This document shows, in pieces, positions 40,514 through 49,085 of a DNA stretch of 64,000 nucleotides. Origin of the DNA: Aestuariispira insulae (GTDB lineage Bacteria; Pseudomonadota; Alphaproteobacteria; UBA8366; Aestuariispiraceae); contig NZ_QRDW01000002.1 of NCBI RefSeq assembly GCF_003385955.1, forward strand, positions 62,001-126,000, in the 5' to 3' direction. The notes under the pieces are model-generated. The model searched no databases. It saw only the letters and a program-made list of their open reading frames with translations, and was not told the origin of the DNA. A program made the position numbers and the translations under genes. Every line of letters begins with the position of its first letter. The stretch's first letter is position 1.

Positions 40514-41617
40514 TCATTCCATCCGGCTGACGGCGTAGGTTGACCGTTCAAGCCAAGCGGGGTTGATCTCCACCCCCCAGCCGGGGGTTTCTGTCACGGT
40601 GGCCATGCCATCGGTGATTTTGTAGGGGTCTTCGGTAAAGAGGCCATATTGCCAGGGGTAATAATCCTCAACCTCGATGTTGAATTCGAGATATTTGCCG
40701 GCATTGGGAATCGCGCGCAGCAGATGCATGGTAAACAAGGTCACCATGGACCAGTTGGCGGCGTGCGGTGTGCAGGGCATGCCCGCTTCCTCGGCCATTT
40801 TTGCGACTTTGAGCGTGCGCGACAGCCCACCCAGGTAACAGATATCGGGCTGCACGATATCAACCACTTTGGTTTCGATCATCTGTTTCCAGACCGCCAG
40901 CTCACAATCCTGCTCACCGCCAGTGACATCGATATCCAGCGCGGCCGTTACTTCTCTGGTCTGGTCATGCTCCCAATAGGGGCAGGGTTCTTCATAATGG
41001 CTGATGCCCCATTCCTGAAGCATATGGCCTACGTCAATGGCCTTTTTCGGGGAATAACAGCTATTGGCATCCACCAATAGGGCGATCTTGTCGCCCATCG
41101 CCCGGCGCATGGTCGGCACGATCTCTTCCGTGCGGCCCGGCCATTCATCCCGGTCGCGGCCAACCTCTGCCCCGATGCGGAATTTGAAAGCGTCAAAACC
41201 CTTTTCATCGCGCAGCCGCACCAGGCGGTCCGCCTCATCCTTTGGCGTGATGTCGCGCTTCATGGAAGACCCGTAGGCACGGACCTGTCCCGGTGTGCCG
41301 CCGATCAGTTCGCAAACCGGCTTTTCTTCCATCCGGCCACGCAGATCCCACAGCGCGGTCTCCACACCGCCCAGCGCCCGGTAAATATAGGAACCTGGGA
41401 ATTTATGCTCGCGCTCGGGAATCAACCGGATCAGTTCCTCTATATCCAGGACATCCAGGCCCAACGCATGGGGCGCCACCTGGCGGTGCAGCACCTGGGC
41501 GGTGATGTCGGCATGATAAGGGGCGGTCTGGCCCCAGCCGTGGCGGCCGTCATCGCTGGTGACACGGACGAAGCAGACGTCCCGTGTGGTGAAGGTTTCA
41601 ATGCAGGAGATTTTCAT
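40514..41617 (-). CDS. mandelate racemase/muconate lactonizing enzyme family protein
   Basis: 367 residues of the enolase superfamily. An N-terminal capping domain (KISCIETFTTRDVCFVRVTSDDG, GSYIYRALGGVETALWDLRG) precedes a barrel with metal ligands in ALLVDANSCYS (Asp), SHYEEPCPYW (Glu) and VTGGEQDCEL (Glu), catalytic-region KFRIGAEVGRDRDEW, and TPHAANWS with a candidate general-base His. Members dehydrate or epimerise acid sugars or racemise acids. Its divergent promoter shares the 46-bp element with the mocR gene, so it probably belongs to the same regulon as the importer and GMC oxidoreductase. Confidence 0.9.
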   Translation of the reverse strand: MKISCIETFTTRDVCFVRVTSDDGRHGWGQTAPYHADITAQVLHRQVAPHALGLDVLDIEELIRLIPEREHKFPGSYIYRALGGVETALWDLRGRMEEKPVCELIGGTPGQVRAYGSSMKRDITPKDEADRLVRLRDEKGFDAFKFRIGAEVGRDRDEWPGRTEEIVPTMRRAMGDKIALLVDANSCYSPKKAIDVGHMLQEWGISHYEEPCPYWEHDQTREVTAALDIDVTGGEQDCELAVWKQMIETKVVDIVQPDICYLGGLSRTLKVAKMAEEAGMPCTPHAANWSMVTLFTMHLLRAIPNAGKYLEFNIEVEDYYPWQYGLFTEDPYKITDGMATVTETPGWGVEINPAWLERSTYAVSRME

Positions 41618-41689
41618 TGCAGGCCACTCATTCGGTTACCGGCTTGGCGGGATAGGGGCACAAGCCTCATTGTTTCCAGAATATGAAAT

Positions 41690-41735
41690 ATTGGTTTCAA
41701 AAATAGATCCATTGTGACAAATCGACGATACCAAT
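41690..41735 (-). promoter_or_regulatory. MocR operator-like 46-bp element, copy A
   Basis: Read on the minus strand, it begins ATTGGTATCGTC, has AATGGATCTATTTT near its centre and ends GAAACCAAT; ends are inverted (ATTGGTWTC and GAWACCAAT). Copy B at 43293 matches at 37 of 46 positions, with mismatches mainly between 12 and 23 bp from its start. It lies between the divergent starts at 41617 and 41778. ATACCA half-sites are typical of GabR/MocR operators. Confidence 0.8.
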
Positions 41736-41777
41736 TATAATTAGGCATAGATTGTATTCGGTTTTAAGGTCATCCCC

Positions 41778-43280
41778 ATGAAATATTCCGGCGGTGCGCT
41801 GCTTTCTTCCATCCGGCTCGAACACGGGGCGGATAAAAACCTGAACGCCCAACTTTACATGGCGATCCGGGATGTGATTTTGTCCGGCGGGGTGAAGGCT
41901 GGGGAACGCCTGCCGGCCAGCCGGACGCTGGCCAATGAATTGGGCATATCCCGGACCACGGTGATTAATGCGCTGGACCGGCTGATGGCGGAGGGCCTTT
42001 TGGAGGCCAGGCAGGGGGCCGGTACCTATGTCAGCGAGGCAATGAATGCCGAACGCCCGGCACCGGGGCCGACGCCACAACGTACCATCGCGGACAAGGA
42101 GCCGCGCCTGTCCCATACGGCGCACCATTTCACCAAACATTTCACCCCGCGCAACCAACTGCCGACACAGGCACGTGCCTTTGTTACCGGTTTGCCGTCC
42201 TTTGATACCTTCCCGATGGCGCAATGGTCGAAACTGGCCGCTAAACATTGGCGCAATGACCGTAATCTGGTCATGGGCTATGGCGACCCACGGGGCGATC
42301 CGGCCCTGCGCCGGGCCATTGCGTCGCACGTCAATGCCAGCCGTGGGATCCAATGTGACCCGGATCAGATCTTCATCACAGGTGGCGCACAGCAGGCCTT
42401 CCAGATGATCGGCGCGATGCTGTTGAATCCGGGAGACCGGGTCTGGTTCGAAAATCCCGGTGCGATCGGGGCGAAAAATTCCCTGCTGTCCTGTGGGGCG
42501 GATCTGGTGCCGGTGGATGTGGATGACGAAGGGATATCCGTGGCGGACGGGCTGGAAAAAGCCCCGCATTTCCGCATGGCCTTTGTCACACCGTCCCATC
42601 AGCAGCCGCTGTCCATGGTGATGAGCCTGCGCCGTCGCTTTGCCTTGCTGCAGGCGGTAGAAGAAGCGGATGCCTGGGTCATCGAGGATGATTATGACAG
42701 CGAGTTTTATTTTGGTGGTCAGCCCCTGCCGACCCTGAAAAGCGTCGATACCACCGGCCGTGTGATCTATGTCGGCACCTTTTCGAAATCCCTGTTCCCC
42801 GCCTTGCGCGTGGGGTTCATTCTCTCTCCGCCCAGCCTGGTGGAGATGTTCGAGCGGGTATCAATTTCGTCGCAATCAGGAATCGCCAACAGTTTGCAGG
42901 CGACCATTGCCGATTTCATGGATGAAGGTTTTTTTGCAACCCATATCCGGCGCATGCGCCAGGTTTATGCGGAACGGCATGAGGCCCTGATCACGGCGGC
43001 CCGGGACAAACTGGACGGGCTTTTGGATGTGCGGCGGACCTTGAGCGGCCTCCATACGGTGGGTTATCTGGCCGAAGGCCTGGATGAGGGCGAGGGAGCC
43101 CGCCTGCTGGATGAGGCCGGGATCGCGGTTTCCCCCTTCGCCCGCTATTGCCTGTCCCCGATCGACAGACAGGGCTTTGCCCTTGGCTTTGGGGCGGTCA
43201 ATCCCCAGGAAATCGGGAGCGGTGTCGCCCGGCTAGCGGAAACCCTCAGGACTCTGCAACGCAACAAATCCTTACGTTAA
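41778..43280 (+). CDS. MocR-family regulator (GntR-type wHTH fused to aminotransferase domain)
   Basis: 500 residues. The N-terminal winged helix-turn-helix (about 15-90) has LYMAIRDVILSGGVKAGERLPASRTLANELGISRTTVINALDRLMAEGLLEARQG. The rest is a class I aminotransferase fold with a PLP-type lysine in VGTFSKSLFPALRVGF, Asp in IEDDYDSEFYFGG, and the PLP-binding FITGGAQQAFQM. These regulators sense amino compounds or PLP-linked ligands (GabR, PdxR). Operator-like elements lie on both sides of the gene. It likely activates the importer operon to its right and the enolase-superfamily gene to its left. Confidence 0.93.
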   Translation: MKYSGGALLSSIRLEHGADKNLNAQLYMAIRDVILSGGVKAGERLPASRTLANELGISRTTVINALDRLMAEGLLEARQGAGTYVSEAMNAERPAPGPTPQRTIADKEPRLSHTAHHFTKHFTPRNQLPTQARAFVTGLPSFDTFPMAQWSKLAAKHWRNDRNLVMGYGDPRGDPALRRAIASHVNASRGIQCDPDQIFITGGAQQAFQMIGAMLLNPGDRVWFENPGAIGAKNSLLSCGADLVPVDVDDEGISVADGLEKAPHFRMAFVTPSHQQPLSMVMSLRRRFALLQAVEEADAWVIEDDYDSEFYFGGQPLPTLKSVDTTGRVIYVGTFSKSLFPALRVGFILSPPSLVEMFERVSISSQSGIANSLQATIADFMDEGFFATHIRRMRQVYAERHEALITAARDKLDGLLDVRRTLSGLHTVGYLAEGLDEGEGARLLDEAGIAVSPFARYCLSPIDRQGFALGFGAVNPQEIGSGVARLAETLRTLQRNKSLR

Positions 43281-43292
43281 GCGGAAAAATAA

Positions 43293-43338
43293 ATTGGTAT
43301 CGTCATTTATCTAGAATGGATATATTTTAGAAACCAAT
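43293..43338 (+). promoter_or_regulatory. MocR operator-like 46-bp element, copy B
   Basis: Starts ATTGGTATCGTC, centre AATGGATATATTTT, ends AGAAACCAAT. It is in the opposite orientation to copy A and lies 115 bp upstream of the ABC binding-protein gene (43453), just after mocR. Conservation of both ends and the centre at identical spacing argues for protein binding. Confidence 0.8.
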
Positions 43339-43452
43339 GAAGTAATAGGCTTCTAATAGGGATCAAAAATACCGGCCCGGAATGCGGACGATCCGAAAAC
43401 AAGAAACCGGTAAACCGGGCAAAAAACAAGCGTTTAACAGGGAGTGAATCAA

Positions 43453-44526
43453 ATGAAGAGAACAGTTCTGAGCGGCGTGGTTGCGGCCGCGCTGCTGGCT
43501 GCGGGTACATCCGCCAATGCGGAAACCCTGCGTCTTCTGACCTGGGGCAGTTATGCGCCGGAAAAAGTCATCGAGATGTTCGAGGAGAAATATCCCGACA
43601 TCGAAGTGGAAGTGACCTTCTCCAACAATGAAGAGATGATTTCCAAGCTGCGGGCCACCGGCGGTGCCGGTTTCGACCTGGCCCAGCCCAGCCATGACCG
43701 CGTTCATGCGGCGCAGTTGGAATACAATATCTACAAGCCGTTGGATATTTCAAAGATCAACACCGCCAATATGGACCAGACCCTGTTGGCCGGCGTGAAA
43801 ACCAACACCACCATTGAAGGCGATCTTTTCTCGGTCCCGCATCAATGGGGAACCTCTGGCCTAATGGCGGATAAATCCAAAGCGCCGAATTTCTCCAGCT
43901 GGGCGGATCTTTGTAACCCGGAATATCAGGGCAAGACCTCTATGCGCCTGAAGCGCACGATCCTGCTGGGTACCGCCTTTGCCATGGGCGAAGATCCGTT
44001 TGCCGCCTATTCAGACCTGAAGAAATATCAGTCCATCCTGGACCGGGTGGCCGACAAGCTGATCGAGTGTAAATCGAATATCAAGGCCTATTGGAAAGGC
44101 GGGGATGATCTTTCCAGCATGATGCTGTCCGGCGAGATCGTGGCGTCTGAAACCTGGGATTCCACCGCATATAAGTTGTTTGACCAGAATAAGAACATCG
44201 TCTTCATTCCGCCGAAGGAAGGCGCATTGGCCTGGATCGACACCTTCACCCTGCCACGCAAGGGCAAGGCGGATGACGCGGCCTATAAATGGATTAATTT
44301 TGTCATGCAGCCGGACATCGTGCCGCTGGTTTCCGGCAGTTCCGGTGCCATTGCCGCAGTCAACGGTGGTGTTGATTTGATGCCGGAAGACAAACGCGCC
44401 GCCGTTAAGGCCGCCTTTGATGACGCGGCCATCGCGAACCTGAAATTCTTCGCCAATATCCCGCCGGGCATCGAAGATATGGAAGGCAAGACCCTGGAGA
44501 AAATCAAGGCAGCCACCGGCGGCTGA
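43453..44526 (+). CDS. polyamine-type ABC transporter substrate-binding protein
   Basis: 357 residues from ATG 43453 (GGGAG upstream; GTG 43444 is in frame). Signal peptide 1-24 (SGVVAAALLAAGTSANA). Family resemblance to PotD/PotF: LRLLTWGSYAPEKVIEMFEEKYPDIEVEVTF, GGAGFDLAQPSHDRV, VPHQWGTSGLMADKSK, SSWADLCNPEYQGK, GALAWIDTFTLPRKGKADDAAYKWINF. It delivers a spermidine/putrescine-like or related compound to the permeases encoded downstream. A hairpin at 44554 lies between it and the ATPase gene. Confidence 0.92.
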   Translation: MKRTVLSGVVAAALLAAGTSANAETLRLLTWGSYAPEKVIEMFEEKYPDIEVEVTFSNNEEMISKLRATGGAGFDLAQPSHDRVHAAQLEYNIYKPLDISKINTANMDQTLLAGVKTNTTIEGDLFSVPHQWGTSGLMADKSKAPNFSSWADLCNPEYQGKTSMRLKRTILLGTAFAMGEDPFAAYSDLKKYQSILDRVADKLIECKSNIKAYWKGGDDLSSMMLSGEIVASETWDSTAYKLFDQNKNIVFIPPKEGALAWIDTFTLPRKGKADDAAYKWINFVMQPDIVPLVSGSSGAIAAVNGGVDLMPEDKRAAVKAAFDDAAIANLKFFANIPPGIEDMEGKTLEKIKAATGG

Positions 44527-44607: not shown

Positions 44608-45717
44608 ATGGAATACGATCTCACCTGCGAATCCGTCTGCAAAAAATTCGGTGAATTTACTGCTGTCGACGATGTCTCTTTCCAGATCCCGAGCGGGTCC
44701 TTCTTTTCAATCCTCGGCCCGTCGGGATGTGGCAAGACCACATTGATGCGTATGATCGCAGGCTTTGAGAGCACCACCAGCGGGGATATCAAGATCAAGG
44801 GTAATTCCGTGCTTTCCCTGCCGCCGAACAAGCGCAATGTGAAGATGGTGTTCCAGCATCTGGCATTGTTCCCGATGATGAATGTGTTTGAAAATATCGC
44901 TTATGGCCTGCGCTGTCAGGGCGTTGGCAAGGAAGAGATCAAGCGCAAGGTCCAGGATGTGTTGGAACGGGTCAGCCTGCCGGATGTGGGGAGCAAGGAA
45001 ATCAGCCAGCTTTCCGGTGGCCAGAAACAACGTATTGCCATTGCACGCTGCATGGTTCTGGACCCGGATGTCCTGTTGCTGGATGAACCGCTGGGCGCGC
45101 TGGACCTGAAATTGCGCGAAAGCATGAAGATCGAGCTGAAGCTCTTGCAGCATCAGTTCAACACCACCTTTATCTATATCACCCATGACCAGTCGGAAGC
45201 CCTGGTCATGTCGGATAATGTGGCGGTGATGAACCAGGGCCGGTTCGAACAGATCGGCACCCCGCAGGCGCTGTATCACAAGCCGGCCTCCGCCTTTGTT
45301 GCGGGTTTTGTCGGTGATGCCAACCGCTGGTCCGGGCGAGTGGTAGAAGGTGCTGACGGCGCGGTGAAGGTCCAAACCGATGGGGGCCTTTCACTGGTCG
45401 GCACAGCTGCCGGCGGCAGTCTTTCCGGCAGCGGCACCGATGTTGAGATTTTTGTGCGTCCGGAATTTATCACGGTTGCGCGCGCGAAAGGCGATGCCCC
45501 GGCCCAGGTTAACGGCCAGAACCATCAGCGTGGCGTGGTGGACAGCCTTTTGTTCAACGGTGCCAACAGCCGGGTCCTGGTGCGTTCTACCAACAACCAG
45601 CTGATCGAGGCGGATTTCCTGCTGACCGGAGGCACGGACGATCTGAAACCGGGCGATGCGGTGGACCTTTCCTGGTCGATTGAGCGCAGTGCCTGTTTCC
45701 AGGCGGCCAGAGGCTGA
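44608..45717 (+). CDS. ABC transporter ATP-binding protein (PotA-like)
   Basis: 369 residues. The ATPase has Walker A GPSGCGKTTLM, Q-loop KMVFQHLALFP, signature LSGGQKQRIAIARCM, Walker B DVLLLDEPLGALD and the switch His in YITHDQSEAL. A C-terminal TOBE-type domain (about 240-365) is present, as in PotA. It energises the two permeases that follow. Its stop is 10 bp before the first permease start. Confidence 0.95.
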   Translation: MEYDLTCESVCKKFGEFTAVDDVSFQIPSGSFFSILGPSGCGKTTLMRMIAGFESTTSGDIKIKGNSVLSLPPNKRNVKMVFQHLALFPMMNVFENIAYGLRCQGVGKEEIKRKVQDVLERVSLPDVGSKEISQLSGGQKQRIAIARCMVLDPDVLLLDEPLGALDLKLRESMKIELKLLQHQFNTTFIYITHDQSEALVMSDNVAVMNQGRFEQIGTPQALYHKPASAFVAGFVGDANRWSGRVVEGADGAVKVQTDGGLSLVGTAAGGSLSGSGTDVEIFVRPEFITVARAKGDAPAQVNGQNHQRGVVDSLLFNGANSRVLVRSTNNQLIEADFLLTGGTDDLKPGDAVDLSWSIERSACFQAARG

Positions 45718-45727
45718 CGGGGGTTCC

Positions 45728-46594
45728 ATGGACAAGGATATCAAAAGGCTCAGCCTGATCCTGCTGATGGCGCCCTTTGCGCTGTGGATCCTGCTGCTGA
45801 TTATCATTCCCCATGTGGGCATTTTCCTTCTCTCGCTCCGGGAGAAGATATCCTACAAGGAATTCACCTATGGCCTGGGGAACTATATCGAATTCCTGAA
45901 CGAGCCGATTTATTGGAACACCCTTTTGCGCACCGGCTCCATGTCGCTGCTGGTGACCATTTTGGCGCTGCTGATCGGCTTCCCGGTCGCTTATTACATT
46001 GCCAAAGTGGCCCGTAAGAAAAGCAAGGGCGCCTTGTTCCTGCTCTGCCTGCTGCCCCTGTGGGTCAGCGAGTTGATCCGCACCTTTGGCTGGATCCTGC
46101 TGCTACGCGAGACCGGGGTGGTCTCCGGGTTCCTGCAAACAATCGGCATCATCGATCAACCGGTGGAATTCCTCTATAACGATGTCACTGTGATCATGGG
46201 GCTGGTATACACCGTCATGCTGTTCATGATCGTGCCGCTGGTCTCCACCCTGGACGGCATGGATGATGCCATGGTCGAGGCGGGTTATAACCTGGGCGGC
46301 AGCGGTTTCACTGTCTTGCGCCGGATCATCATTCCCTATGCCATGCCGGGCATTGTGGCCGGTTCCATTGTGGTCTTCATGCTGGCGGCAGGTAGCTACC
46401 TGACACCGATCCTGCTGGGCGGCAAGAATAGCAGCTGGTTCACCGAACAGATCTATGACCAGTTCATCACCCGCTATAACTGGGAATCGGGCGCAGCCTT
46501 CGGTTTCCTGCTGCTGGCATTCACCTCCATCGTTGTCTGGTTGGGCCTACGGCTCACCGGCCAGTCTCTGGCAACTACCGTGGCGAAGGACTGA
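45728..46594 (+). CDS. ABC transporter permease, PotB-like
   Basis: 288 residues with six predicted membrane helices, starting MDKDIKRLSLILLMAPFALWILLLIII. The EAA loop, which contacts the ATPase, is in DAMVEAGYNLGGSGFTVLRRIIIPYAMPGI. It forms the channel with the next gene's product. ATG 45728 is chosen 10 bp after the ATPase stop because the upstream extension has no ribosome site. The stop is 4 bp before the next start. Confidence 0.93.
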   Translation: MDKDIKRLSLILLMAPFALWILLLIIIPHVGIFLLSLREKISYKEFTYGLGNYIEFLNEPIYWNTLLRTGSMSLLVTILALLIGFPVAYYIAKVARKKSKGALFLLCLLPLWVSELIRTFGWILLLRETGVVSGFLQTIGIIDQPVEFLYNDVTVIMGLVYTVMLFMIVPLVSTLDGMDDAMVEAGYNLGGSGFTVLRRIIIPYAMPGIVAGSIVVFMLAAGSYLTPILLGGKNSSWFTEQIYDQFITRYNWESGAAFGFLLLAFTSIVVWLGLRLTGQSLATTVAKD

Positions 46595-46598
46595 GGCT

Positions 46599-47450
46599 AT
46601 GATCAAGAATCCTGTATTTACCCTGGCCTATCGCTGCTACATCCTGGCCTTTTTCCTCTTCCTGGCGGCCCCGTTGGCGGCGGCGGGCATGTTTGCCTTC
46701 AATGATTCCCTGTTTCCGGCATTGCCCTGGCAGGGGTTCACGCTCGACTGGTTCTTTAATGACACCGAACCGAAACTGGGCATGTTCCATGATCGCAGAT
46801 TGCTGCGCGGGCTCTATTATTCCTTCATTATTGCGAGTTGTGTCTCCCTGATGTCGGTTTTTGTCGGCACCTGCAACGCCTTCCTCTTCACCAGGGGCCA
46901 GTTTCCGGGCAAAGGCGTTCTTTACATCCTGATGGTGGTGCCGCTGGTGATCCCCGGTGTGATCCTGGGTATTTCCATCCTGGTGCTGGCCAGCACCATC
47001 GCCAATGGTGTGGAAGAAGCCTATGGCTGGGAATGGGATTTCCTGCGGCCGGGCCTGCCGCTGGTGGTTTTGGGACAGTTTTCCTTTGTCACCACGATCA
47101 CCTCCCTGGTGATCACGGCGCGCCTGCAAAAGCTGGATTTCTCGCTGGAAGAGGCGGCCTTTAACCTAGGGGCCAAGCGGCTGCGCGTCTTGCGCACCAT
47201 CACCCTTCCCTTCCTGAAACCGGCTCTGATCGCCAGCGGCCTGGTGGCTTTTCTGGTCAGTTTCGAAAACTTCAACACCACATTGATGGTGGTGGGATCC
47301 GAAGCACCGCTGACCGTCACCATGTTTGACCGCATGGTGAAGGTAGGCTCGACACCGGTTTTGAATGCGGTTTCCTTCTTCCTGATGATCGGCTCAGGGA
47401 TCCTGGCGTTGGCCATGGTCTTTGCCCAGCGGAACAGCAAGTCGGAATAG
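46599..47450 (+). CDS. ABC transporter permease, PotC-like
   Basis: 283 residues with six membrane helices and an EAA motif (FSLEEAAFNLGAKRLRVLRTITLPFLKPAL). The N-terminus is NPVFTLAYRCYILAFFLFLAAPLAAAG. It partners the PotB-like permease. ATG 46599 lies 4 bp past the preceding stop. The next gene, the GMC oxidoreductase, begins 6 bp after the stop, so all five genes from 43453 probably share one transcript. Confidence 0.93.
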   Translation: MIKNPVFTLAYRCYILAFFLFLAAPLAAAGMFAFNDSLFPALPWQGFTLDWFFNDTEPKLGMFHDRRLLRGLYYSFIIASCVSLMSVFVGTCNAFLFTRGQFPGKGVLYILMVVPLVIPGVILGISILVLASTIANGVEEAYGWEWDFLRPGLPLVVLGQFSFVTTITSLVITARLQKLDFSLEEAAFNLGAKRLRVLRTITLPFLKPALIASGLVAFLVSFENFNTTLMVVGSEAPLTVTMFDRMVKVGSTPVLNAVSFFLMIGSGILALAMVFAQRNSKSE

Positions 47451-47456
47451 GGGCAG

Positions 47457-49085
47457 ATGGGTCAGTTTGACTTTGTTATTGTCGGGGCGGGCTCGGCCGG
47501 CTGTGTGCTGGCCAGCCGCCTGAGCGAGAATGGCAAATATTCAGTCTGTCTGTTGGAGGCGGGGGGATCGGATCTCAATTTCTGGATCCAGATGCCGATC
47601 GGTTATGGCAAGGCGTTTTATGATAAACGCATCAACTGGATGTACCAGACCGAGCCTGAACCCAATCTGGACAACCGGCGCAGCTATTGGCCCCGGGGCA
47701 AAGTGCTGGGCGGATCCAGTTCCATCAATGCCATGGTCTTCATCCGCGGCCAGGACCGTGATTATGATGAATGGCGTGATCGGGGCAATCCGGGCTGGGG
47801 CTATTCCGATCTTCTGCCCTATTTCAAGAAAATGGAAACGGCGGGCGATGGCGCGGATGATTGGCGCGGCGGCGACGGGCCATTGCATGTGACCGATCCC
47901 AGTGCCGATACCCACCCTATTTGTGAGGCCTTCATCAAGGCGGGCGGGGCGCTTGGCCTGCGCCATACCCCGGATTTCAACGGCGCGGATCAGGAAGGGG
48001 TCGGCCGGTATCAGATTACGGCCAAGGGCGGCATCCGTATGTCGGCCAGCCGGGCCTATCTCTGGCCGGCCAAAGGGCGCAAGAACCTGACCGTCATTAA
48101 GCATGCGCGGGCCAGGCGCATCCTGCTTGAAGGTAGACGGGCGGTTGGCATTGAATATGACTGCAAGGGCAAGCGGCAGGAAGTGCGTGCCGGGCGAGAG
48201 GTCATCCTATCGGCGGGCGCAATCAATTCACCGCAGCTTCTGATGCTTTCAGGCATCGGGGCGGGCGCGGTGTTAAAAGAACCGGGCCTGGATGTGCAGC
48301 TGGATAATCCAGCCGTCGGGCAGAATCTACAGGACCATCTGGCGCTGGATTATCTCTATAAGGCGAAAGTGCCGACCCTGAATGATCAGTTGCGGCCCTG
48401 GTGGGGCAAGCTGATGCATGGTATCCGCTATGTCCTGGCGCGACGCGGGCCGCTCTCTTTGAGCGTCAACCAGGCAGGCGGCTTCTATCGCAGCCGGGAG
48501 GGCCTCGACCGCCCGAACCAACAGCTGTTTTTCTCGCCCTTGAGCTATACCAAGGCCCCACCGGGTAGGCGTCCGCTGATGAACCCCGATCCTTTCTCGG
48601 GTTTCCTGTTGGCGACACAGCCAACCCGGCCGACCAGCCGGGGCCATCTGACCCTGGCCAGCGCCGATCCGGATGCGGCTCCAAGGATTTATCCCAATTA
48701 TCTTTCCACGGATTTCGATATCCAGGAGATGTTGGAGGGCGCGGCTTTCCTGCGCAGGCTCGCGGCAGCACCGGGCCTGGCCGATGTGATTGAGGCGGAA
48801 ATGGCACCGGGGCCGCATATTCAATCGGAAGAAGATCTTCTGGCCGATATCCGCGCGCGCAGCGGTACCGTCTTCCACCCGGTCAGCACATGCCGCATGG
48901 GACCGGCGGATCAGGGCAATGTGGTGGATGCGCGCCTGCGGGTGCATGGTCTTGGTAGTCTTCGGGTGGTGGATGCCTCCATCTTTCCCACATTGATCGC
49001 AGGCAATACCAATGCGCCCGCCATTATGGTGGGCGAAAAGGGTGCGGATTTGGTCCTGGAGGACCAGGCAGAGTGTAGGTTTTAA
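47457..49085 (+). CDS. GMC-family oxidoreductase (choline dehydrogenase-like)
   Basis: 542 residues. FAD-binding VIVGAGSAGCVLASRLSE at the N-terminus, GMC signature 1 GKVLGGSSSINAMVFIRG, signature 2 GAINSPQLLMLSGIG, and the active-site region TVFHPVSTCRMGP (His) with SIFPTLIAGNTNAPAIMVGEKGA. It oxidises an alcohol (choline or a similar amino-alcohol) to aldehyde with electrons to quinone or an acceptor. Tight linkage with a polyamine-type importer suggests it processes the imported compound. No betB-like aldehyde dehydrogenase follows. Confidence 0.93.
   Translation: MGQFDFVIVGAGSAGCVLASRLSENGKYSVCLLEAGGSDLNFWIQMPIGYGKAFYDKRINWMYQTEPEPNLDNRRSYWPRGKVLGGSSSINAMVFIRGQDRDYDEWRDRGNPGWGYSDLLPYFKKMETAGDGADDWRGGDGPLHVTDPSADTHPICEAFIKAGGALGLRHTPDFNGADQEGVGRYQITAKGGIRMSASRAYLWPAKGRKNLTVIKHARARRILLEGRRAVGIEYDCKGKRQEVRAGREVILSAGAINSPQLLMLSGIGAGAVLKEPGLDVQLDNPAVGQNLQDHLALDYLYKAKVPTLNDQLRPWWGKLMHGIRYVLARRGPLSLSVNQAGGFYRSREGLDRPNQQLFFSPLSYTKAPPGRRPLMNPDPFSGFLLATQPTRPTSRGHLTLASADPDAAPRIYPNYLSTDFDIQEMLEGAAFLRRLAAAPGLADVIEAEMAPGPHIQSEEDLLADIRARSGTVFHPVSTCRMGPADQGNVVDARLRVHGLGSLRVVDASIFPTLIAGNTNAPAIMVGEKGADLVLEDQAECRF

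Follow-up and report, generated by a model that had tools for sequence, protein, structure and literature searches.

Candidate operators of a MocR-type regulator at the enolase-superfamily, ABC importer and GMC oxidoreductase genes of Aestuariispira insulae

The mocR locus and its two 46-bp elements

The window analyzed here is a 64,000-nucleotide stretch of the Aestuariispira insulae genome (contig NZ_QRDW01000002.1, positions 62,001 to 126,000) in which a mocR gene lies between an enolase-superfamily gene and the genes for an ABC importer and a GMC-family oxidoreductase. The features of the locus, in window coordinates, are the following:

40514..41617, minus strand: enolase-superfamily (mandelate racemase/muconate lactonizing) gene, divergent from mocR
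41678..41683, minus strand: promoter of the enolase-superfamily gene, predicted -10 TATTCT, beginning 7 bp past operator 1
41690..41735, minus strand: operator 1 (candidate), in the divergent enolase-superfamily/mocR intergenic region, running 5' to 3' towards the enolase-superfamily gene; boxes on the minus strand, 5' to 3', ATTGGTATC ... AATGGATCT ... GAAACCAAT
41714..41741, plus strand: predicted mocR promoter, GTGACA-16-TATAAT (alternative TTGTGA-18), 11/12 consensus matches
41778..43280, plus strand: mocR, encoding a GntR-type wHTH and a fold-type I aminotransferase domain
43293..43338, plus strand: operator 2 (candidate), with the same three boxes, running 5' to 3' towards the ABC importer operon
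43346..43351, plus strand: promoter of the importer operon, predicted -10 TAGGCT, beginning 8 bp past operator 2
43453..44526, plus strand: ABC importer solute-binding protein, PotD/PotF-like
44608..45717, plus strand: ABC importer ATPase
45728..46594, plus strand: ABC importer permease 1, PotB-like
46599..47450, plus strand: ABC importer permease 2, PotI/PotC-like
47457..49085, plus strand: GMC-family FAD oxidoreductase, choline-dehydrogenase-like

The initial annotation had described two 46-bp copies, inverted relative to each other and identical at 37 of 46 positions; their location proved exact, and we confirmed the identity. Aligned in direct orientation, the two share only 23 of 46 positions. 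When both intergenic regions were dinucleotide-shuffled in 500 trials, the best 46-base match had a mean of 23.9 (sd 1.4) and a maximum of 30, compared with the 37 observed. The whole genome (4.82 Mb) was scanned by pattern matching, a weight matrix being used on the orthologous loci. The two elements were the only genomic matches to ATTGGTWTC-N26-30-GAWACCAAT, the reversed control of which gave 0 matches, and the three-box pattern returned exactly operators 1 and 2 at 0 mismatches, the remainder being unrelated matches with 3 mismatches. The shuffles and the genome-wide pattern scan rule out chance similarity of the elements. We also rejected the reading of element 2 as a mocR terminator, since the scan shows no terminator-like site inside it.

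Candidate operators at orthologous loci

The group of enolase-superfamily, mocR, importer, and GMC genes recurs in ~25 loci, with MocR identities of ~50–60%. We trained a weight matrix on the mocR-upstream sites and on operator 2 and applied it to the orthologous loci. It detected 70 operators in 31 loci, of which 30 lie in the enolase/mocR region, 22 belong to the importer operon, and 18 to the GMC gene. Of these, the 39 operators at importer and GMC promoters other than operator 2 lay outside the training set. Most operators scored above 15, compared with a best unrelated score of 14 in 1.0 million background positions; some weak GMC operators scored 5–8, near background, and rest on position and orientation. 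The 68 operators with a checkable downstream gene all face the same way with respect to the structural gene, and not with respect to mocR; the remaining two are on truncated contigs. A GMC gene standing alone has its own operator (L036, L098, and L100), and the held-out loci L121–L123 contain seven operators, at the expected promoters and in the expected orientation. At one of these, L123 from Paraburkholderia, the enolase gene and the importer retain their sites, while mocR lies >1.5 kb off with its own separate promoter.

Within the set of relatives, the pattern (≤1 mismatch) occurred in five of the six genomes with an orthologous mocR versus two of ~134 genomes without one. As the initial annotation had asked, we looked for the element at orthologous loci. 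In Comamonadaceae, Sphaerotilaceae, Rhizobiaceae, Roseobacteraceae, Kiloniellaceae, and other groups, it lies upstream of one or more of the divergent enolase-superfamily gene, the importer operon, and the GMC gene. The comparison supports the proposed link of the enolase-superfamily gene, mocR, the importer, and the GMC gene into one regulon. The description of the elements as flanking mocR holds in the window and not as a rule, since copies in relatives need not flank mocR; each element belongs to its target promoter.

The best explanation, and a very probable one, is that the two elements are operators of the MocR encoded between them. We base this on comparative genomics, namely the occurrence of just two sites in the A. 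insulae genome, their conservation in relatives, the target set, the orientation rule, and the position of the -10; as with MocR-type operators, a site is present at the regulator and at conserved target promoters in orthologous genomes. Inverted 46-bp repeats ~1.6 kb apart around a single gene could also be read as the terminal inverted repeats of a small mobile element carrying mocR. However, no target-site duplication was found, the proteins examined included no transposase, either within the unit or next to it, the similarity is limited to spaced boxes, and relatives also have direct-orientation copies upstream of importer or GMC genes away from mocR. Since the sites go where the targets go, we exclude terminal repeats of a mobile element: the orientation rule and the conserved position at promoters already refute this reading, and we give it practically no credence. 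The sites could instead be bound by another regulator, e.g., a 41%-identical MocR paralogue encoded in the same genome, whose upstream region contains a related three-box site, ATTGGCTTGC..AACCATTGTTGG..GGTGCCATT, so that cross-binding is possible. We consider binding by another regulator very unlikely because the site tracks the enolase-linked MocR clade and relatives without that clade essentially lack it, the paralogue's own site differs in its boxes, and the mocR promoter itself carries a site.

The site upstream of the paralogous mocR reads ATTGGCTTGCATAAAAGAACCATTGTTGGAATATTGATGGTGCCATT (L120:7498-7544, contig C8, same genome) and scored 14.8. Similar site variants precede more distant mocR genes (L044, L051, L058, and L061), suggesting that the three-box layout is older than the regulon.

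Box anatomy and regulator family

Read towards the structural genes, the boxes are ordered → → ←, with ATTGGT (ATTGGTATC), AATGGA at +22 bp, and an inverted ACCAAT at the end. TGG occupies element positions 3–5 and 25–27, 22 bp apart, and the inverted CCA occupies positions 42–44. MocR-type operators contain two to four repeated boxes, direct and/or inverted, at whole-helical-turn spacing and with a TGG or TGT group (PMC5320631); here, TGG boxes are repeated in both direct and inverted orientation with helical-turn spacing, and → → ← is the commonest layout (32%) among 761 reconstructed MocR regulons (PMC5320631). The non-redundant operator consensus is AnTGGtnTgnnnnattntncAaAaTGGacCTnnnnnnnngnCCant.

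Across relatives, the GG of box 1 and the GG of box 2 are invariant, the center box AAAaTGGacCT is the best-conserved part, and box 3 is the weakest, its CC being kept at 50–79% in the GMC class. For these reasons, the operator core is the direct repeat, TGGtnT with AAAaTGGacCT 22 bp on, accompanied by a weaker inverted third box, rather than the outer inverted pair. Of the conserved outer half-sites and center noted initially, the center stands, being itself a box in the direction of the first half-site, and the outer pair does not stand as the core. The ATACCA, GabR-type label suits the outer boxes of some copies and not the core, which repeats TGG in direct orientation and has a center resembling PdxR boxes and moc-boxes; with the order → → ← and the repeated unit TGGtnT/TGGacCT, the sites are not operators of the GabR (ATACCA) type. 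Agreement between the outer half-sites was 4.74 of 8 for own pairs versus 4.29 for crossed pairs, a covariation too weak to serve as independent evidence; in L096 and L097, both outer boxes changed together. In two Rubrivivax loci (L029 and L032), box 3 has been lost from the enolase operator and the direct repeat kept.

The MocR protein contains PF00392 (residues 24–85) and PF00155 (residues 146–453), matches the full-length GabR structures 4n0b and 7pq9, and has an SKS motif (FSKS) near residue 337, read from the sequence and presumed to hold the PLP lysine. By these features it would belong to the MocR subfamily, which is vitamin-B6-linked. The best NCBIfam model was rhizopine MocR (NF052281) at 459.5 bits, below the curated cut-off of 650; the PdxR model (NF052282) gave 404.2, above its cut-off of 320, and the GabR model gave 262 bits, placing the protein further from GabR than from rhizopine MocR or PdxR. 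The enolase-linked MocRs form one clade, set apart by a branch with 100/100 support.

Rhizopine MocR is an activator of importer and catabolic genes that acts at PmocB (PMC10107442). At PmocB of Sinorhizobium meliloti L5-30, the proposed moc-box AAAGYGGYTCT forms a direct repeat and resembles the center box described here (PMC10107442), although its period is 24 bp (11 + 13) rather than 22 bp, the inverted third box is present only here, and the target genes differ. The PdxR box of Corynebacterium glutamicum, AAAGTGGW(-/T)CTA, closely resembles the center box as well (PMC4494728); in contrast to PdxR, the targets here are importer and catabolic genes, the neighborhood lacks pyridoxine-synthesis genes, and in the loci examined none of the genes adjoining the operators was a pdx gene. 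GabR of Bacillus subtilis likewise has three 6-bp boxes in ~41 bp over divergent regulator/target promoters (gabR/gabTD), with the third box in the -35/-10 spacer, but its order is → ← → with ATACCA direct repeats, as opposed to → → ← with a PdxR-like center. The MocR regulogs of Suvorova and Rodionov (2016; RegPrecise) share the → → ← layout and the box distance of about two helical turns and also include regulation of transporters and redox enzymes. Their main text names no enolase-superfamily/GMC regulon, though the supplementary tables may list it without a function, and we found no paper whose main text connects a MocR to both a GMC oxidoreductase and an enolase-superfamily gene.

Promoter geometry and proposed regulation and substrate

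Of 49 non-redundant sites, 34 had their best -10 at offsets of 6–10 past the operator, compared with 6.1 expected, and the offset peaked at +8/+9 in each of the three target classes. L096 and L097 have an identical TAGGCT at the same place as the importer -10 of the window. In the target promoters, the -35 slot would sit between boxes 2 and 3, where the match is poor and there is no clear -35. This arrangement, with box 3 in the spacer, matches a rebuilt GabR promoter with the native gabTD site spacing, in which the -35 lies between S2 and S3 and S3 falls in the spacer (PMC9452892). The -35 and spacer of the predicted mocR promoter fall inside operator 1; this promoter is near consensus in the window, and a matching one is not clearly conserved in relatives.

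On this promoter geometry and by analogy with GabR and rhizopine MocR, activation rather than repression of the targets seems likely. A head-to-tail MocR dimer, as expected for the family, would bind the 22-bp direct repeat (~two helical turns). Operator 1 would serve the divergent enolase-superfamily/mocR promoters, and the importer-GMC operon would be under operator 2. When bound, MocR would cover its own -35 and spacer, and the position of these within operator 1 fits autorepression. The PLP of MocR would react with the imported amine to form an external aldimine, and in the aldimine state MocR would activate both outward promoters, which have a -10 at 7–9 bp past the operator and a poor -35. 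GabR represses its own expression and, with PLP and GABA, activates gabTD (PMC6917764). While operator identity is well supported by the sequence comparisons, activation and the class of inducer are what we infer, an amine being proposed because known inducers form an aldimine with PLP.

The same operators could also serve a MocR that is a plain repressor of all the promoters and is released by its inducer, as with EnuR, a MocR repressor whose operators lie over the promoter core (PMC8739950). Protein bound at box 3, which in the targets separates the -35 slot from the -10, could obstruct polymerase. However, the lack of a recognizable -35 in the target promoters suits an activator, the fixed orientation and -10 distance in all target classes exceed what occlusion needs, and rhizopine MocR, the closest named family, activates its promoter (PMC10107442); we therefore regard plain repression as unlikely. 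The activator reading can be taken further. The regulon would then be undescribed and widespread and serve an amine-bearing polyol or polyamine-like substrate, and MocR, as a head-to-tail dimer on the 22-bp repeat, would be an obligate, orientation-locked activator replacing the -35 at every target promoter. We offer this fuller form tentatively, with confidence somewhat short of even.

The combination of an importer, GMC alcohol oxidation, an aldehyde dehydrogenase, an FAD amine oxidase, and an enolase-superfamily enzyme suggests an amine-bearing polyol or polyamine-like compound as the substrate, taken up for catabolism. A betaine-aldehyde-dehydrogenase-like enzyme and an AmaA-like FAD oxidase are added in the loci of relatives. 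At L018, L030, L037, and L100, an aldehyde dehydrogenase and/or DAO-family FAD oxidase is tied to the same operators; the cluster in the window is without them. The enolase-superfamily protein is close to the solved structures 3t8q, 3u4f, 3tcs, and 3t9p, to which the PDB titles assign no function, and the inducer would indicate the substrate of this enzyme. In Ruegeria pomeroyi, SPOA0381 and SPOA0384 were up 2.4- and 2.8-fold, respectively, on Micromonas exometabolites (PMC9870897). By gene order, these genes would be the R. pomeroyi version of the importer; the main text of R. pomeroyi transporter-mutant work does not name the system.

With a defined operator, a target set, and a predicted promoter geometry, the regulon is compact and testable. 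The regulator clade spans alpha- and betaproteobacteria, including the genetically tractable R. pomeroyi DSS-3, and the fixed operator orientation and -10 distance bear on how MocR proteins activate transcription. Versions of the gene group are found on megaplasmids in R. pomeroyi, Shinella, and Paraburkholderia. The R. pomeroyi DSS-3 locus (L121, megaplasmid positions 416152-435600) also contains a second mocR-like gene, an epoxide hydrolase, an aldehyde dehydrogenase, and two FAD oxidoreductases. In Comamonadaceae (L018–L033), the same operator precedes the genes of a different ABC importer (only ~30–48% identical), so the operator seems to have been kept while the transporter was exchanged.
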